Shown here: in pieces, positions 1,959-23,665 of the stretch
Position numbering within the stretch: position 1 is the stretch's first letter
How the letters are laid out: each line of letters opens with the position of its first letter
Origin: a virus
Strand: one strand, 5' to 3'
IMG/VR virus record: IMGVR_UViG_3300025086_002601
Span: 1 to 25,123 of that record
DNA: 25,123 nucleotides
Translations under genes and position numbers: made by a program
Notes under the pieces: generated by a model
The model's database searches: none
Told to the model about the DNA's origin: nothing
The model's input: the letters and a program-made list of their open reading frames with translations, nothing else

Positions 1959-2154
1959 ATTCTTCTAATTCAACCTCAATCTGTTCATATGTTTCTTGCC
2001 ATTTATCTAGCCATTTTGCTTGTTCTTCAGTTAGTGTATCGTTCCAATATCTATTAGCCTCGAACTCAACATCTTCAAGATTAGGGTTATCAGCTATATA
2101 ATTAACATAATCCATATTATGTTTATTCATCAATTTTTCTACTTTTTCTAACAT
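1945..2154 (-). CDS. Small acidic hypothetical protein, 69 aa
   Basis: A leftward gene inserted between the modification cassette and the terminase genes. It encodes a highly acidic, probably helical protein, starting MLEKVEKLMNKHN and ending with an EVELEEYENN tail. There is no signal peptide and no membrane segment. The ribosome-binding leader GAGGATAATAATATG is identical to that of the leftward gene at 6999-7331, and the promoter has the same design. The strand switch and dedicated promoter make it a moron-like gene, expressed independently of the late rightward operon. A small acidic protein could be a DNA mimic or anti-defence protein, but that is speculation. No family recognised. Confidence 0.75.
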   Translation of the reverse strand: MLEKVEKLMNKHNMDYVNYIADNPNLEDVEFEANRYWNDTLTEEQAKWLDKWQETYEQIEVELEEYENN

Positions 2155-2176
2155 ATTATTATCCTCTATTAAGTTT

Positions 2177-2205
2177 ATACTTATAGTATACTATACTTAT
2201 AGTAC
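2177..2205. repeat. Operator-like ATACT/AGTAT half-site array
   Basis: The element ATACT-TAT-AGTAT lies at 2177-2189 and a near-identical copy with a final C at 2193-2205, with copy starts 16 bp apart. Half-sites alternate in orientation every 8 bp, so AGTAT-N3-ATACT-N3-AGTAC can be read at 2185-2205. It covers the -10 box and spacer of the leftward promoter. A dimeric repressor bound side by side would fit. The same arrangement occurs at 7389-7409. Confidence 0.6.
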
Positions 2206-2212
2206 AAGTAAA
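2185..2212 (-). promoter_or_regulatory. Leftward sigma70-like promoter for the 69-aa/55-aa genes
   Basis: Read on the minus strand there is TTTACT (2207-2212), a 16-nt spacer and TATACT (2185-2190). This puts the transcript start near 2178 and the gene start at 2154. The -10 box and spacer are overlaid by ATACT/AGTAT half-sites, as expected for a repressed promoter. The same boxes recur at 7389-7417. Confidence 0.7.
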
Positions 2213-2230
2213 GCATTTTAATCAAAAAAG

Positions 2231-2266
2231 TTGCTTTTTTTTTATTTTTACTCTATAAAAAGAGTA
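2231..2266 (+). promoter_or_regulatory. Candidate terS promoter and start-site hairpin
   Basis: TTGCTT (2231-2236), 17 nt and TATAAA (2254-2259) form a plausible rightward promoter that would start just before the terS ATG at 2270. A 6-bp inverted repeat, TACTCT at 2249-2254 and AGAGTA at 2261-2266, contains the only purine-rich segment upstream of that ATG. In read-through transcripts it could hide the ribosome-binding site. An AAAAAAG-TTG-CTTTTTT repeat followed by further T residues (2224-2243) could also be a weak terminator. The three readings compete, and none is proven. Confidence 0.35.
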
Positions 2267-2269
2267 TAT

Positions 2270-2653
2270 ATGCCAAAAATAGTAAAAAAAACTAAAGAAA
2301 TAAGCGAAATGGTCAAGAGATTGTCAGGAATAGGTATAACTCATGACATGATTTGCTCTATTGCTAATATATCTAAACCCACACTCTACAAGTATTATGA
2401 TGAAGAAATTAGGGTAGGAAAAGCACAATCTACTGCCACGATTGCCAATAATCTCTATCGTATGGCAACAGGAGAGGGCAAAGAGGCACTTACAGCATCT
2501 ATTTTTTGGCTTAAAACACAGGCTGGTTGGAAAGAAACAGATGTTGTGGAGATAAACAATGTATCAGATGAAAAAGAACGATTTGAAAGATTGCTCAAAT
2601 CAGTTCGACAAACTAAATCCATTAAATCAGATAGCAACGAATCTACTCATTGA
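2270..2653 (+). CDS. terS: Terminase small subunit
   Basis: A 127-residue DNA-recognition subunit of the packaging motor. Residues about 7-50 form a helix-turn-helix region: a GIGITHDMICSIA helix, the turn ISKPTLYKYY, then the YDEEI and GKAQST segments common in phage small terminases. The middle holds a typical ASIFWLKTQAGWKE segment, probably the oligomerisation core. The polar C-terminus probably contacts the large subunit. I chose the ATG at 2270 because the 13 residues before it, from an upstream ATG at 2231, are a hydrophobic run unlike the family and lie within the promoter region. The gene overlaps the large terminase gene by 95 nt, an unusually long overlap. Confidence 0.85.
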   Translation: MPKIVKKTKEISEMVKRLSGIGITHDMICSIANISKPTLYKYYDEEIRVGKAQSTATIANNLYRMATGEGKEALTASIFWLKTQAGWKETDVVEINNVSDEKERFERLLKSVRQTKSIKSDSNESTH

Positions 2654-3848
2654 TTGGTACGATAAAGCAAGACCAACACAATTAGTAGAGGATAATGATA
2701 AATATAATATACATTTATTCCTCGCTGGTCGTGGTTGGGGCAAAACTTTAACAGGTGCATATGACATTGTTGAATATTGTTTAACGAATGATAATGTTGT
2801 TTGTGGTGTAGTTGCTCCCACATATGGCGACTTAAAAAGAGTTGTATTCGCTGGAGATTCAGGGTTTATTAATATAATCGATAAAAGATTATTGAGTAGC
2901 ACAGGTTATAATAAATCAGCCAATGAGATACATTTTTATAATGGCTCACGAATAGTTGGCTTTCCAGCGATAGAGCCTGACAGATTAAGAGGAGTTCAGT
3001 TCCATAGAGTATGGTGTGATGAGTTAGCCTCTTGGAGATATTCAGAAACTTTCGATAACTTAATGATGGCATTAAGATTAGGACAGAATCCTAAATGTAT
3101 TATTACAACAACACCTAGACCAACAAAGATTATAAAAACTCTAGCCAAAAGAAGTGATACCAAACTAATAACTGGCTCAACATTCGAGAACATTGATAAT
3201 CTAGCTGAATCATCTGTACAAATGTTAAAAGAAAGATATGAGGGAACTCGTATCGGTAGGCAAGAACTTTATGCTGAAATACTAGAAGATGTTGAGGGTG
3301 CTTTATTTAATTATAAAAACATAGAAGAAAACAGAATTACCAATCATCCTATCGACTTACAAAGAATCGTTGTCGCTATTGACCCAGCAGTCACAAGTAA
3401 TGAAAACTCTGATGAAACAGGCATGATAGTTGCTGGTCGTGATATTAATAATCATTACTACATATTACATGATGCTAGTCAAATAAGTTCTCCTGATGAA
3501 TGGGTTAAGAAAGCCATATCACTTTATAAACAATATGAATGTGATAGGATTGTAGCAGAGGTAAATAATGGTGGCGATTTGATTGAAAGACTATTAAGAA
3601 CACAAAATCAATCAATTCCTTATACAAGTGTAAGAGCGAGTAGAGGAAAAATGATAAGAGCCGAGCCGATATCAGCACTTTATGAGCAGAATCGAGTTCA
3701 TCATGTAGGAGTTTTTAAAGATTTAGAGGAACAAATGTGTCAGTTTACAGGAAATGGGGTACAATATCATGATGACAGGGTTGATGCTTTAGTTTGGGCG
3801 ATAACCTCACTACAAAATAGTGGTAAAGCAGTGTTCAATATAAGTTAG
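2559..3848 (+). CDS. terL: Terminase large subunit (ATPase-nuclease)
   Basis: A 429-residue DNA packaging motor. Walker A is AGRGWGKT (56-63), Walker B is VWCDE (151-155) and the coupling motif is ITTTP (182-186). The C-terminal RNase H-like nuclease shows its acidic residues in AIDPAVT (D275), AEVNNGGD (E334) and HDDRVDA (D405, D406, D409). The protein pumps DNA through the portal encoded next and makes the end cuts. The start at 2559 has GGAG about eight bases upstream; the ATG at 2568 is an alternative. The long overlap with terS suggests coupled translation and subunit balance. All motifs look intact. By overall pattern it belongs with terminases found beside HK97-type portals. The packaging mode (cos or headful) cannot be told here. 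Confidence 0.95.
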   Translation: MYQMKKNDLKDCSNQFDKLNPLNQIATNLLIDWYDKARPTQLVEDNDKYNIHLFLAGRGWGKTLTGAYDIVEYCLTNDNVVCGVVAPTYGDLKRVVFAGDSGFINIIDKRLLSSTGYNKSANEIHFYNGSRIVGFPAIEPDRLRGVQFHRVWCDELASWRYSETFDNLMMALRLGQNPKCIITTTPRPTKIIKTLAKRSDTKLITGSTFENIDNLAESSVQMLKERYEGTRIGRQELYAEILEDVEGALFNYKNIEENRITNHPIDLQRIVVAIDPAVTSNENSDETGMIVAGRDINNHYYILHDASQISSPDEWVKKAISLYKQYECDRIVAEVNNGGDLIERLLRTQNQSIPYTSVRASRGKMIRAEPISALYEQNRVHHVGVFKDLEEQMCQFTGNGVQYHDDRVDALVWAITSLQNSGKAVFNIS

Positions 3849-3856
3849 GAGTTAGT

Positions 3857-5905
3857 ATGGGCATATTTGATAAATTTTTTAAAGGTAGTATTCAAAAAAA
3901 AGAATCTCCAACAGTTATGATTAATAGATTAGAGGCTTACATGGGTAAGTCTACTAGAAAATATAAAGAGTATGCTAAAGAGGGTTATCAAGACAATGCA
4001 ATCGTTCATAGATGTGTAAAACTAATATCTGATTCAGCGAGTGCTGTAAAAATAAAAGTATTTGATGGCGATATAGAATTAGAAAATCATGAGTTGATAT
4101 CTCTACTACAAAGACCCAATCCTTTACAAAGTGGTGGCGAATATTTTGGCTCATTGTATTCTTATCTTCTTATTTCAGGAAACTCGTATCTTTTAAGAGA
4201 TACAGAAAACGATACACCACCAAGAGAATTATATTTATTAAGACCCGATAGAATAAAAATAAAATCAAGCTCATCAATGATTCCTGATTATTACTGCTAT
4301 CTAGTAGATGGTCAAATAGTCAAAGAGTATCCTGTAGACCAAGACACAGGTCGTTCTCAATTAAAACAAATTAAGTTGTGGAATCCTTTAGATGACTTCT
4401 ATGGATTAAGTCCAATATTAGCAAGTGCTTATAACATTGACCAACACAACCTTGCTGGTTTACATAATGTTGCTTTATTAAAAAATGGTTGTACTCCGAG
4501 TGGTATGTTAAAGTTTGAGCCAAAAGATGAAACAGGAATGTCGGCTACTTTAACAGATGACCAACGAGCTAGACTGTTAGAAGATTTAGAAATGAGGTTT
4601 CAGGGTAGTTCAAACTCAGGTAGACCCATGTTGTTAGAGGGAAACTTTGATTATACACAGCTCGGATTAAACCCTAAAGATATGGACTTCTTAGAACTCC
4701 TTAACTTATCCGCAAGGGAAATAGCATTATGTTTTGGAGTTCCAGCACAATTAATCGGTATTCCTGAGGCTAATACTTATAGCAATATGGAAACTGCAAA
4801 ATTAGCATTATATGAAGAAACAGTTATACCTTTATTGACTAGAGTTCAATCTGACTTGAATGAGTTCTTATCACCTCTTTACGATGGCGATATTAGAATT
4901 GAATATGATTTAACTAGCATACCAGCTATGGCAGAAAAGACTAAACAAGTTTATCTCAATGTTTCACAAGCAGTACAGAATGGTATCATGACTCGTAACG
5001 AGGCAAGAGAGAAGTTAGGACTCGAAGAAATAGAGGGTGCTGATGAGTTATATATACCAAGTAATCTATTCCCTATTGGCGAAGTAGATGCCTCAAGTGT
5101 TCAGGATAATGACCAACCTGTTGATGCAGAGGGCAACGAAAAAGATTATGAGTTGGCTTATGGTAAAAAAGAGGCAGTTGATGTAGATACCTTTACTACC
5201 GAAGAAGAGGCACAAGAAAGAGCCGAAGAAATAGGTTGTGTTGGCATACACTCACACACAGAAGATGGTCAGACAGTTTATATGCCTTGCAAGACTCACG
5301 AAGAATATGAATCTTTACTAGCAGATAGTAAAGCATTAAGCGACTTGAAATTAGTTCCGACAGATACTATGTCTAATAATGCTAAGAGAGGATTAGAGTT
5401 AAGAAAAGAATTTAATCGTGGTGGCACACAAGTAGGAGTCACGAGAGCCAATCAGTTAGTTAATAAACAAAGACTATCTCCTGATACTGTTTTAAGAATG
5501 TATAGTTTCTTCAGTAGACACGAAGTAGATAAGCAAGGTCGTGGATTTAATTCAGGCTCTGAGGGATACCCAAGTGCTGGTAAAATAGCATGGTTGCTTT
5601 GGGGTGGTGATGCTGGTTTTAGTTGGTCAAAATCTAAAAGAAACCAAATAATGAAAGAAAGGGAAAGCAAAGCAGAATCGGATGCTTTAAAAGTAGGCGA
5701 TATGGTTTCTTGGGATTCCTCAGGTGGTAGAGCCAAAGGGAAAATAACAAGAATAGTTAGGTCAGGTAAACTAGCTGTGCCTAAAACTAGTTTTACTTTA
5801 AATGCCACAGAAGATAATCCAGCTTGTTTGATTAAGGTTTATCGTGGAGATGAGCCAACAGACACGATAGTAGGTCATAGATTTAGAACTTTAAGAAAGT
5901 TATAA
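3857..5905 (+). CDS. HK97-family portal protein with a multi-module C-terminal extension
   Basis: At 682 residues this is much longer than the usual 400-430. Residues 1 to about 420 are a normal HK97-type portal, including GYQDNAIVHRCVKLI, the LLQRPNP segment and the FGVPAQLIGI segment near 300. They form the dodecameric DNA channel that binds terminase and the head-tail connector. The extension has three recognisable parts. Residues about 458-489 hold a Cys/His-containing segment with GIHSHTEDGQTVYMPC. Residues about 505-600 hold a globular domain with RHEVDKQGRG and SAGKIAWLLWGGD. Residues 610-682 resemble a Tudor-like DUF2945 (Hva1) fold: KVGDMVSWDSSGGRAKGKI through DTIVGHRF. Such modules are known from head-gene regions of other phages. 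Their role is unknown; capsid-interior or DNA contact is a guess. AGGAG precedes the start, and the TAATG overlap links it to the next gene. Confidence 0.9.
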   Translation: MGIFDKFFKGSIQKKESPTVMINRLEAYMGKSTRKYKEYAKEGYQDNAIVHRCVKLISDSASAVKIKVFDGDIELENHELISLLQRPNPLQSGGEYFGSLYSYLLISGNSYLLRDTENDTPPRELYLLRPDRIKIKSSSSMIPDYYCYLVDGQIVKEYPVDQDTGRSQLKQIKLWNPLDDFYGLSPILASAYNIDQHNLAGLHNVALLKNGCTPSGMLKFEPKDETGMSATLTDDQRARLLEDLEMRFQGSSNSGRPMLLEGNFDYTQLGLNPKDMDFLELLNLSAREIALCFGVPAQLIGIPEANTYSNMETAKLALYEETVIPLLTRVQSDLNEFLSPLYDGDIRIEYDLTSIPAMAEKTKQVYLNVSQAVQNGIMTRNEAREKLGLEEIEGADELYIPSNLFPIGEVDASSVQDNDQPVDAEGNEKDYELAYGKKEAVDVDTFTTEEEAQERAEEIGCVGIHSHTEDGQTVYMPCKTHEEYESLLADSKALSDLKLVPTDTMSNNAKRGLELRKEFNRGGTQVGVTRANQLVNKQRLSPDTVLRMYSFFSRHEVDKQGRGFNSGSEGYPSAGKIAWLLWGGDAGFSWSKSKRNQIMKERESKAESDALKVGDMVSWDSSGGRAKGKITRIVRSGKLAVPKTSFTLNATEDNPACLIKVYRGDEPTDTIVGHRFRTLRKL

Positions 5906-6186
5906 TGAAGTCCAAAACATTGGCAGAAAAAAAACATATGCAAAAAGTTGCAGAATTAGGTTGTATTGCTTGTCGAAAGCTCGGTTTCTATGATACACCA
6001 GCAGAACTGCATCATATTAAGAAAGGAATGATGGGTAAACGAGCATCTAATTATGAGGTCATACCTTTATGCCCATATCATCATAGAAATTCTAAGGAGT
6101 CTTATCATCAGAATCCTTTATGGTTTACAGAAACTTTTGGTACACAAACTGAACTCTTACAGGAAACTTTACAATGGCTAAAATAA
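5905..6186 (+). CDS. HNH nuclease, Ref-like (RecA-dependent nuclease family)
   Basis: A small (93 aa) HNH-fold protein. The zinc/metal frame is CIAC (C20, C23), ELHHIKKG (H36, H37) and PLCPYHHR (C56, H59, H60), followed by SYHQNPLWF and a TFGTQTELL ending. This layout matches the family of phage P1 Ref, a RecA-dependent nuclease, better than the HNH proteins that assist terminase in HK97-like phages. Its place between portal and gpF-like genes, with a 1-nt overlap upstream and 13 nt downstream, means it is made with head proteins. Either role, recombination or packaging-linked cleavage, is possible. The motif residues look complete. Confidence 0.8.
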   Translation: MKSKTLAEKKHMQKVAELGCIACRKLGFYDTPAELHHIKKGMMGKRASNYEVIPLCPYHHRNSKESYHQNPLWFTETFGTQTELLQETLQWLK

Positions 6187-6950
6187 GAATCAATCGTAGA
6201 AAAGAATATAGACAAGCATTAAGAACTTATATCACCATGACTAGAGTCTTAATTAAGAAACTAGATAAATTCTTTGATAAATATAAACGATATGCTTTCA
6301 AAAACTATGCAGAACTCGGAGAGATACCTGATAAATATTATGATGACCATTGGCAAGATTTATATAAACTCTTAGAAATAAATTCTAAGCGAATTATCGA
6401 AGAATCATCAAGAACTATCAAGACATCTAAACTATTACAGAAAGCAGAAGATGAAGTAGCACAAGTCACTTATGATTATATCACTACTAATACTGCACAA
6501 AATGTCACTTACATAACAGAAACTACTAGAAAAAAAATACAGTCTGCTATCGCTTATTCAGTCAGCGAGGGATTCGGACAAGATGATACTGCTAAACAAA
6601 TAGCAAAGTCTACAGCATTTAGTACAGGAAGAAGTAAAGTTATAGCAAGGACAGAAACTCATCAAGCATATAATTATGGTAATAATAAGATTGCTAGAAG
6701 ATTAGCATTGAAGAAACCTAGAAAAGAATGGTTAAGTGCTATAGATGAAAGAACGAGGTCATGGCACACTAATATGAATGGCACTAACATTCCTATCGAA
6801 GATGATTTTCAAGTTTTTGCACCAAGTAAAGTAGACCCAATACCACAGCTTATGCAATATACAGGCGATATCAATGGTGGTGCTAGTAATGTTGTAAACT
6901 GTCGTTGCTTTACTATGTACTATGATGAAGATGATGTTATTGTAGATTAA
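6174..6950 (+). CDS. Mu gpF-like minor head / head morphogenesis protein
   Basis: 258 residues. The N-terminal 120 residues are helical and charged. The C-terminal domain carries the gpF (SPP1 gp7-like) signature: RSKVIARTETHQAYN at 153-167, WLSAIDERTRSWH at 186-198, and the closing GDINGGASNVVNCRC at 231-245 with paired cysteines. Family members are few-copy internal head proteins that bind the portal and help DNA delivery. The gene overlaps the HNH gene by 13 nt and ends at the A-run that forms part of the following terminator. It is the last gene of the packaging operon before the strand switch. Confidence 0.88.
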   Translation: MAKIRINRRKEYRQALRTYITMTRVLIKKLDKFFDKYKRYAFKNYAELGEIPDKYYDDHWQDLYKLLEINSKRIIEESSRTIKTSKLLQKAEDEVAQVTYDYITTNTAQNVTYITETTRKKIQSAIAYSVSEGFGQDDTAKQIAKSTAFSTGRSKVIARTETHQAYNYGNNKIARRLALKKPRKEWLSAIDERTRSWHTNMNGTNIPIEDDFQVFAPSKVDPIPQLMQYTGDINGGASNVVNCRCFTMYYDEDDVIVD

Positions 6951-6981
6951 AAAAAAAAGAGCCATATTGCTATGACTCTTT
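6949..6981 (-). terminator. Bidirectional intrinsic terminator between convergent genes
   Basis: AAAGAG at 6956-6961 pairs with CTCTTT at 6976-6981, with an inner CAT/ATG extension across one mismatch and a 6-nt loop. On the minus strand the hairpin is followed by ten T residues (A-run at 6949-6958), a strong stop for the moron transcript. On the plus strand it is followed by CTTTCTTTCT, a weaker stop for the packaging operon. Confidence 0.8.
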
Positions 6982-6998
6982 CTTTCTAACATAATTTA

Positions 6999-7331
6999 CT
7001 ATTTTGTTTTATATTTACCAAATAATTTATTCTGTTTTTCTCTCCAATCCTGTAATGATATATGACCATCTTCAATTTTATCATCTTCTGCTAATCTTCT
7101 ATCAAAAGTTATTTTTTCTACTGCCATAAGAACTCCCTCATCATTCAAATCTCTTGCTATATTACGTTCAATCGAATCTTTAATTTCATTTTTAAAATCC
7201 AATAGTTTTTTATTTTCTTCTAAAAGAACATAAAATGCCTTTTTTAGATTTTCATTATCATTTAAAAGAACATCGTTAAGTTTTTCAAGTTTATCGTAAC
7301 CCTGTGCTTTCATACTTGTTTTGTAGTCCAT
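6999..7331 (-). CDS. Hypothetical moron protein, 110 aa, coiled-coil-like
   Basis: A leftward gene between head morphogenesis and prohead protease genes. I chose the ATG at 7331 over the in-frame ATG at 7382: it follows GAGGATAATAATATG, a leader identical to that of the 69-aa gene, and the 7382 codon lies at the predicted transcript start. The protein is charged and helical. Residues about 15-60 (KLEKLNDVLLNDNENLKKAF onward) look like a coiled coil, and a polar tail ends GKYKTK. It has no membrane segment and no known motif. Own promoter, own terminator and strand switch make it a textbook moron, probably expressed at a different stage from the structural genes. The function is unknown; host takeover, superinfection exclusion or regulation are possibilities. 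Confidence 0.75.
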   Translation of the reverse strand: MDYKTSMKAQGYDKLEKLNDVLLNDNENLKKAFYVLLEENKKLLDFKNEIKDSIERNIARDLNDEGVLMAVEKITFDRRLAEDDKIEDGHISLQDWREKQNKLFGKYKTK

Positions 7332-7388
7332 ATTATTATCCTCGTTTATCGTTAAATTTAAGAGTCTTTTTATCAACTCCATATATAC

Positions 7389-7417
7389 AGTATATTATAC
7401 TAAAAGTATAAAGTAAA
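7389..7417 (-). promoter_or_regulatory. Leftward sigma70-like promoter with overlapping operator (moron promoter)
   Basis: On the minus strand TTTACT (7412-7417), a 17-nt spacer and TATACT (7389-7394) give a start near 7382 and a 51-nt leader before the ATG at 7331. AGTAT-ATT-ATACT-AAA-AGTAT at 7389-7409 covers the -10 box and spacer, as in the promoter at 2185-2212. Confidence 0.7.
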
Positions 7418-7423
7418 GGGTAT

Positions 7424-7486
7424 TTGATTAAATAAATGAAAATAATAGACTTATTTTACTAAATATGGTTAAAATACCTGTATATT
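7424..7486 (+). promoter_or_regulatory. Candidate rightward promoter for the protease-capsid operon
   Basis: After the strand switch the capsid genes need a new promoter or antitermination. TTGATT (7424-7429), 16 nt and TAGACT (7446-7451) is one candidate. A second possible -10 box, TATATT (7481-7486), has no well-placed -35 box. The region is AT-rich, so chance matches are likely. A phage-specific late promoter would not be recognised this way. Confidence 0.3.
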
Positions 7487-8195: not shown

Positions 8196-9410
8196 ATGTC
8201 AGAAGAAATTAATGATGTAATTGATAATCTAGGTAAATCTTTTGAAGATTTCAAAAGTGAAAACCAAAAGAATATTGATGAAATCAAAAAAAATGGTGTC
8301 GCTGACCCTATTCTTCAAGCAAAGGTAGATAAACTTGCAGATGATGTTGCTACGAAAGCAGAATTAAAACAAGATGCCGAGCTCAAAGAACAAGGATTAG
8401 AAGAGGCTAAAAAAAGACTTGATGCTTTAGAAACTAAATTAGCAAGACCCGAAACTGGTAATACTGCTAAAGAAGTTGACTTACAAATGAAAGCATTTGG
8501 TAAATATCTAAGGTCACAAGAGTTAGACCCAGAAGAAACTAAAGCACTTTATGAGTCAGATGATTCATTGGGTGGTTATTACTGTCCGACAGAATATGTT
8601 GCAGAACTTATCAAGTCTGTGACTGAGTTCTCACCAATGAGGTCTATCGTTAGAGTTAGAAGTACCGATAAGAGAGGGATTGAAGTTCCAAAAAGAACTG
8701 GTCAATTCTCAGCTCAATGGGTTTCTGAAACTGCTACAAGGAGTGAAACAACAGGGTACACAACAGGCTTAATGTCTATTGATGCTCATGAGTGTTATGC
8801 ACTAGTAGATATGTCACAAGCAATGTTAGAAGATTCTGCTTTTAATATGGAAAGTGAGATGGCTACTGAGTTTGCAGAACAGTTCGCTGTTGCTGAGGGA
8901 ACTGCTGTCATATCAGGAAATGGAGTTGGTAAACCTTTAGGTCTTACTGATTCTACTGCTGGTGTGGGTGCAACGAACTCAGGTAATGCAAATACACTAA
9001 CTGCTAATGGTCTTTATGACTTAATCTATGCACTTAAATCTGATTATTTAAGAAATGCAAGATTTGTTATGAATAGAGGCACTTTTGCTAAAGTTCTTCA
9101 ATTAGAAGATACTGCTGGACAAAAAGTGTTCCATGTTGGCTTGAACTTAGTAGCTGGTGCTCCAAGCACTATCGCTGGTTATGGTTATACCCTAGCCAAA
9201 GATATGCCTGATGTATCTGCTGGAACTAAACCTGTTGCATTTGGAGATTTCTCTAGAGCATACACTTTAGTAGACAGAGTTAATATGTCAATAGTTCGTG
9301 ACCCATTCACACAACAACATTTGGGTAATGTTCGTTATACTGCCAGACGTAGAGTTGGTGGTACAGTAGTTCTTGCAGAGGCAATCAGACTACAAAACAT
9401 ATCTGCATAA
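8196..9410 (+). CDS. Major capsid protein (HK97 fold)
   Basis: 404 residues. Residues 1 to about 95 form a charged helical delta domain (LQAKVDKLADDVATKAEL and following), expected to act as built-in scaffold and to be cut by the preceding protease. The mature shell domain starts near 100. It has DDSLGGYYCPTEY, the E-loop/N-arm stretch VRVRSTDKRGIEVP, the QWVSETA segment, the AEGTAVISGNGVGKPLG spine region, and the C-terminal FGDFSRAYTLVDR and RRVGGTVVLAEAI strands typical of phage capsids. The cut site is not defined by the sequence. The Asp codons before Pro in this gene are GAC, contributing to the GATC avoidance seen throughout. Confidence 0.95.
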   Translation: MSEEINDVIDNLGKSFEDFKSENQKNIDEIKKNGVADPILQAKVDKLADDVATKAELKQDAELKEQGLEEAKKRLDALETKLARPETGNTAKEVDLQMKAFGKYLRSQELDPEETKALYESDDSLGGYYCPTEYVAELIKSVTEFSPMRSIVRVRSTDKRGIEVPKRTGQFSAQWVSETATRSETTGYTTGLMSIDAHECYALVDMSQAMLEDSAFNMESEMATEFAEQFAVAEGTAVISGNGVGKPLGLTDSTAGVGATNSGNANTLTANGLYDLIYALKSDYLRNARFVMNRGTFAKVLQLEDTAGQKVFHVGLNLVAGAPSTIAGYGYTLAKDMPDVSAGTKPVAFGDFSRAYTLVDRVNMSIVRDPFTQQHLGNVRYTARRRVGGTVVLAEAIRLQNISA

Positions 9411-23652: not shown

Positions 23653-23665
23653 ATACTTTTAGTAT
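23653..23665. repeat. Third ATACT-N3-AGTAT element
   Basis: ATACT-TTT-AGTAT at 23653-23665 is the exact reverse complement of the element at 7397-7409 (ATACT-AAA-AGTAT). AGTAT-ATTC-ATACT lies nearby at 23540-23553, at the end of the distal tail gene. It sits downstream of the tail operon and just past the end of the leftward genes, and overlaps the candidate start of the short transcript. Confidence 0.45.

Follow-up and report, generated by a model that had tools for sequence, protein, structure and literature searches.

Do two leftward gene units that encode dissimilar small proteins answer to one regulator? The question is raised by a 25,123-nt stretch of DNA from an uncultured marine virus of bacteria (IMG/VR record IMGVR_UViG_3300025086_002601, positions 1 to 25,123; hereafter the window), in which a first-pass annotation had noticed two minus-strand units with a common promoter, overlaid repeat and ribosome-binding leader, and had read them as morons belonging to a hidden regulon within the late region. 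We found that the conserved unit is a 13-bp dyad, ATACT-N3-AGTAT, sometimes present in tandem, which is concentrated between genes, is confined to part of the window's relatives, and stands at core early promoters as well as ahead of exchangeable cargo genes. These sequence comparisons give good support to a genome-wide early regulon that adopts cargo genes, and a single regulator probably governs the cargo and the main early promoters.

The ATACT-N3-AGTAT dyad and its clade boundary

Both sites carry TTTACT, a 16- or 17-nt spacer and TATACT on the minus strand, at the positions originally reported (Table 1), and GAGGATAATAATATG occurs exactly twice in the window (2166-2152 and 7343-7329), once in each unit, as their common ribosome-binding leader; the cargo proteins sort into separate families, in agreement with the dissimilarity first described. 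Sigma-70-like hexamers alone were at chance in the window (31 found vs 30.1 expected), and the 13-mer dyad with up to one mismatch was marginal there (6 vs 2.35 expected, with 4 of 100 shuffles reaching 6). Both counts would suit a chance resemblance, or a shared ancestry of two intergenic regions, that carries no function. The case therefore rests on relatives, whose dyad counts, intergenic enrichment and clade restriction (below) make such an explanation hardly credible.

We retrieved 80 loci encoding relatives of the window's large terminase, together with the longer contigs behind those loci. Contig G017 matches the window exactly across their overlap and adds 9,016 bases on the left; the joined sequence is referred to as W. 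Loci whose large terminase is at least 82% identical to that of the window are called clade A, the dyad-bearing part of the loci at 75-81% identity clade B, and the rest clade C (the sister clade), a grouping drawn after the data were seen; genes were called with our own simple caller. No near DNA match to this phage was found among cultured phages, the best terminase match was 45%, and the matches in a genome collection (55% in a Flavobacteriales metagenome-assembled genome, weaker ones mostly in Alphaproteobacteria) did not point to a host.

When ATACT-n-AGTAT was counted at n = 0-15 in the dyad-bearing genomes (259 kb), only n = 3 was strongly enriched, with 31 exact copies vs 1.1 expected (27 without G019, G020 and G021, which were chosen for carrying the motif; not all copies are independent, G001 and G016 being almost one and the same phage). 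The other spacings were near chance, gaps between adjacent dyads excepted, and the sister-clade genomes held no exact copy in 254 kb. The half-sites were conserved in clades A and B while the N3 spacer was free to vary, and the distance between tandem dyads took values of 11, 13, 16, 18 and 23 bp. The inverse arrangement, AGTAT-n-ATACT, occurred in 8 copies at n = 3 and 9 at n = 4, which is the gap between neighbouring dyads; the operator unit is therefore ATACT-N3-AGTAT. The overlay of the first-pass annotation, AGTAT-N3-ATACT-N3-AGTA[T/C], lies well above chance as a 21-bp pattern (4 matches in the window with up to two mismatches vs 0.38 expected; no shuffle reached 4), but its operator had been read in the wrong register, AGTAT-N3-ATACT being the inner halves of two adjacent dyads joined. 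G001 itself (L218, L219) carries the same genes at both ends of its 35.7-kb contig, and therefore looks like a complete genome with redundant ends.

The motif search across relatives that had been proposed at the outset yielded an enriched dyad with a clade boundary. Exact copies were present at 20 of the 21 loci with terminase identity of at least 82% (39 copies) and at 16 of the 23 loci at 75-81% (22 copies), and at none of the 36 loci below 75% (347 kb). In de novo searches for intergenic dyads, ATACT-N3-AGTAT ranked first in W and G005 and second in G003; it was second in G001 behind its own overlapping register, G004 yielded this overlapping register only, and G007 gave nothing above the cut-off. 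With upstream regions pooled, the dyad or its overlapping register ranked first for clades A and B, and the same search found no comparable dyad in the sister clade. In an exact viral-wide scan of ATACT-N3-AGTAT-N3-ATACT, most matches outside this group looked like chance.

Two other repeated elements were seen on the way. The first, TGGGT-N12-ACCCA, is a further intergenic dyad that is found repeatedly before genes in clade A and the G011 subclade (L218 of G001, 3653-3736, and similar places); it could be a hairpin that acts in termination or attenuation. The other consists of GATATAAT-like repeats that one sister subclade has close to its control region and to another promoter (L234 of G010, about 4700-4800 and 9230-9360); this subclade may use an operator of its own.

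Promoters, cargo genes and leaders

We then located the dyad relative to genes. With up to one mismatch, clades A and B held 59 copies in 24.7 kb of intergenic DNA vs 28 in 234 kb of genic DNA, a 20-fold higher density between genes; clade C (2 in 23.1 kb intergenic, 19 in 231 kb genic) was not enriched. An equal frequency inside genes, which the first-pass annotation had named as an outcome that would refute a regulon, was thus not what we observed in A and B, and the regulon survives. Within promoters, the dyad sits in the -35/-10 spacer or, as a second copy, overlaps the -10. Its distance to the start codon is mostly 34-39 nt when it is single or distal and about 20-26 nt when proximal, and is larger where the leader holds a hairpin. 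A weight matrix at 10 bits or more found sites at 31 of 201 gene starts in A and 14 of 178 in B, counts that are partly circular since the matrix was trained on A and B sites; the checks are reversed sequence (2 and 0) and clade C (0 of 382). One conserved site is accordingly repeated at many promoters of a single genome, with 7 predicted sites in W and 9 in G001 (reversed control 1 and 0).

These positions bear on whether the dyad could be a promoter part, namely TATACT -10 elements in both orientations that were spread by duplicating one strong promoter module. The half-site TATACT is indeed identical to the -10 hexamer, and the sites share flanks and leaders as dispersed copies would; however, the spacing is fixed at 3 in many copies while the distance between tandem dyads varies, some early promoters hold the dyad wholly in the spacer together with a separate TATAAT -10, and a sister clade of similar base content has no dyad. 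We consider this explanation quite unlikely, and take the dyad to be an operator.

The set of dyad-preceded genes extends well past the late region, to which the original proposal had too narrowly confined it: the dyad marks core early promoters in both directions, and 42 gene families have at least one dyad-preceded member. In clade A it stands ahead of the first early leftward gene in 7 of 8 distinct members (0 of 7 in C), of the gene for the ERF annealing protein in 5 of 5 (0 of 7 in B, 0 of 2 in C), and of the helicase operon or a small gene just ahead of it. Two promoters of W (G017, L231), the leftward one of the ERF gene at about 5050-5114 and the rightward one ahead of the helicase operon at about 7424-7485, are near-identical over about 40 bases and, judged from this likeness, constitute another duplicated promoter.

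In the late region, cargo accumulates at two hot spots. One lies upstream of the small terminase gene; the other separates the MuF-like gene from the prohead protease gene, a gap that measures 44-71 nt when empty and 490-2570 nt when filled. All 8 filled clade A loci (three near-identical) have small leftward genes and one exact dyad 101-112 nt before the protease start, and the empty clade A locus L014 (71 nt) has none; 5 filled clade B loci have rightward genes and dyads, and the dyad occurs in 0 of 8 filled clade C loci. At the small-terminase site, all 7 distinct clade A loci with a leftward insert carry the dyad and the clearly insert-free loci do not (L022 is not resolved in this count; its phage does have a dyad ahead of the cargo gene). 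Some cargo families occupy different places: members of the 70-aa MENRYTNIK family lie upstream of the small terminase gene in L013 and at the MuF hot spot in L022/G003, and those of the 100-aa MKLTTEQLL family lie upstream of the small terminase gene in L010 and early-left in G001. For the family of window gene 6999-7331, a dyad precedes the gene in 2 of 2 cases in A, 0 of 1 in B and 0 of 2 in C. Extra genes thus lie between genes that adjoin in relatives at both hot spots, one of the traits of a moron, and the dyad is gained and lost together with them, empty sites being without it; the moron reading of the two window units is supported.

Dyad genes of this phage also have the leader AACGAGGA in common. 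Of the genes in W, 4 of the 6 with a dyad have AACGAGG ahead of them, as against none of the 48 without (p about 5e-5); the shared leader is therefore not just the ribosome-binding sequence that this phage uses in general. Some leaders, that of window site 2 among them, begin with a short stem-loop, with predicted leader energies of -5.5 to -7.9 kcal/mol; no stable RNA hairpin was predicted for the site 1 leader. Across ten distinct arm pairs, 95% of cells pair vs 73% in shuffles, and covariation was 0.756 vs 0.324 (0 of 500 shuffles as high; slid controls far lower), figures that are optimistic because the sequences were picked for a visible hairpin and their arms aligned by it. The arms were joined by a uniform artificial loop for alignment, since MAFFT misplaced the loops of full hairpins. 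A search of Rfam gave no match.

Table 1 Features of the two promoter-operator units and related elements in the window (dyads listed without strand).
Feature	Position	Strand	Remarks
Predicted leftward promoter 1	2185-2212	-	-35 TTTACT 2212-2207, spacer 16, -10 TATACT 2190-2185; rests on dyad and position
Operator dyad 1a, ATACTTATAGTAT	2177-2189		Exact; overlaps -10 of promoter 1
Operator dyad 1b, ATACTTATAGTAC	2193-2205		One mismatch; in promoter 1 spacer, 16 bp from dyad 1a
Leader of cargo gene 1, GAGGATAATAATATG	2152-2166	-	
Cargo gene 1a, 69 aa	1945-2154	-	No confident family
Cargo gene 1b, 55 aa	1791-1958	-	Overlaps 1a; also in unit 1
Predicted leftward promoter 2	7389-7417	-	-35 TTTACT 7417-7412, spacer 17, -10 TATACT 7394-7389
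Operator dyad 2, ATACTAAAAGTAT	7397-7409		Exact; within promoter 2 spacer
Degraded second dyad, ATATATACAGTAT	7381-7393		Overlaps -10 of promoter 2
5'-proximal leader hairpin, GGAGTTGATAAAAAGACTCT	7361-7380	-	Leader minimum free energy -5.5 kcal/mol; z -1.5 here, -3.6 in a close relative
Leader of cargo gene 2, GAGGATAATAATATG	7329-7343	-	
Cargo gene 2, 110 aa	6999-7331	-	No family found
A-tract/hairpin/T-tract	6951-6986		Between the ends of the MuF-like gene and cargo gene 2; seen by eye
Third exact dyad, ATACTTTTAGTAT	23653-23665		No gene behind

Unit 1 comprises two genes, with no terminator seen behind them, and cargo gene 2 starts at 7331 and not at the in-frame upstream ATG at 7382. The tract beyond the end of cargo gene 2 looks like a two-way terminator, although a terminator scan did not list it. 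The third exact dyad is probably a relic, because the corresponding position in G001 is followed by a rightward gene of 97 aa. Elsewhere in the window, two adjoining rightward genes (112-1032 and 1029-1802) match, respectively, a family of unknown function and, weakly, the beta-glucosyl-HMC-alpha-glucosyltransferase family phrog_842 (E 1.6e-10); the pair is possibly involved in DNA hypermodification.

Candidate regulators and proposed mechanism

A single regulator, as first proposed, is the best explanation of a shared promoter, operator and leader before unrelated genes; we infer it from this pattern, and none of the proteins considered below pins it down. The best candidate, by genomic place and fold, is a Cro-like HTH_3 protein of 61 aa, the product of the first gene of the rightward early operon (W 6882-7067, in G017, outside the window). 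It scored 31.3 bits against Pfam HTH_3 (cut-off 23) and has a predicted Xre-type domain fold (predicted local distance difference test, pLDDT, 92.4), with CylR2 among the solved structures closest by VIA-align (Z about 9). In clade A its gene has only a weak or degraded dyad upstream, mostly TTACT-TTT-AATAT (9.0-11.2 bits). We put the chance that this protein is the regulator a little short of even.

Three observations count against a single-regulator early regulon, or against this candidate. The core early promoters of clade B have a degraded dyad at best. The recognition helix of the Cro-like protein reads PEVTVNSW in A and PF/LPTI/MSKY in B while the half-site is the same in both, so that the helix does not track the dyad, which argues against the Cro-like protein or for an unseen factor. 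Many sites, moreover, look like dispersed copies of one ancestral promoter, and are therefore not independent.

Other phage proteins fared no better. In an initiator-like HTH_36 protein, Arg56 of the predicted recognition helix seemed specific to the dyad-bearing clades, and the protein was dropped when Thr was found in its place in the dyad-carrying L041, L043, L108 and L055; an HTH_39 protein was set aside as no member was found in clade B. No gene family turned out to be shared by every dyad-bearing genome and missing from the sister clade, and the part of the W proteins that was scanned yielded neither a CI-type repressor gene nor an integrase family. That neither DNA-binding candidate tracks the dyad, and that no phage gene family does so, would fit binding by a host transcription factor, which would couple early and cargo genes to a host signal and make the clade boundary a difference between hosts. 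Against this, the core early promoters of clade A carry the dyad and the promoter of the Cro-like gene itself has a weak form of it, as in phage-encoded circuits, and we regard a host factor as unlikely.

We favour a single dimeric regulator, most likely an Xre/Cro-type repressor, for which the dyad would probably serve as operator over a genome-wide early promoter set. As the dyad lies in the -35/-10 spacer or over the -10, a regulator bound there would keep RNA polymerase off the promoter. When the phage enters the cell, the early leftward operon, the helicase operon, the ERF gene and the dispersed cargo genes would be transcribed by the polymerase of the host, and the regulator would later shut these promoters off. 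Genes acquired at the hot spots would carry the promoter-operator-leader module, and so be early genes inside the late region; the hairpin at the start of some leaders may protect the mRNA 5' end. The sign and timing of this control, like the function of the hairpin, are inferences.

Known systems and biological meaning

Several known systems resemble this arrangement in part. P1 has 22 C1 operators dispersed over its genome under one phage repressor (PMC8546580), likewise many copies of one short operator; they are asymmetric 17-mers of another sequence, in contrast to the symmetric 13-bp dyad, and P1 is temperate with a known repressor, whereas no repressor or integrase family appeared among the genes scanned here. 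The 15-bp SPBRE element of SPbeta, present in about ten phage promoters, was also spotted in silico before its binder, the repressor being found more than 20 years later (PMC10516654). Its sequence differs, and that repressor, MrpR, has a tyrosine-recombinase fold and maintains lysogeny, whereas the dyad geometry suggests an Xre-type dimer and lysogeny is without support here. The stoperators of cluster A mycobacteriophages (24 in L5 and 34 in Bxb1; PMC3029335) are likewise repressor sites of 13 bp spread over intergenic regions, but they are asymmetric and proposed to block elongation in a prophage, whereas the dyads lie in promoter spacers.

The bacterial antitoxin MqsA binds a palindrome through its helix-turn-helix domain. 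This palindrome, AACCT-N3-AGGTT, recurs at several promoters of that one regulator (PMC4894380) and has the same geometry as the dyad, two 5-bp half-sites 3 bp apart, with a different half-site. The closest parallel for the leader lies in the SAS/ESAS (start-associated and extended start-associated sequences) of cluster K mycobacteriophages, a conserved ribosome-binding leader with upstream inverted repeats before many unrelated genes, of unknown function (PMC3203893). The SAS sequence GGGATAGGAGCCC is absent here (one 3-mismatch match in the window vs 1.29 expected); SAS are found only in the non-structural half of the genome, whereas dyad sites occur in the structural region too, and the ESAS repeats are 17 bp with variable spacing, against 5 bp and a fixed N3. 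Morons, defined as additional genes that have a promoter of their own and lie between genes which adjoin in relatives (PMC3029335), differ in that the unrelated inserts here have one clade-specific operator and leader in common. What sets the present case apart is that these traits occur together: one operator is found both at core early promoters and with swappable cargo of the structural region, a leader hairpin goes with it, and the whole is bounded by clade.

A broader reading, which we hold only tentatively, is that promoter, dyad, ribosome-binding leader and often a 5' hairpin form a plug-in module at a few landing sites. Genes acquired there, in either orientation and even in the structural region, would join the early regulon; cargo would be exchanged and the module retained, members of these families in the sister clade being without it, and control would come from a regulator not yet recognised, possibly a host factor.

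The clade-specific operator places dozens of small uncharacterised proteins (42 families) under the same predicted control, probably with early host-directed functions. Accessory genes of uncultured phages are hard to interpret, and the dyad provides a simple rule for finding more of them. Furthermore, it suggests how a newly acquired gene may be brought under control immediately, a point of relevance to the evolution of phage cargo.

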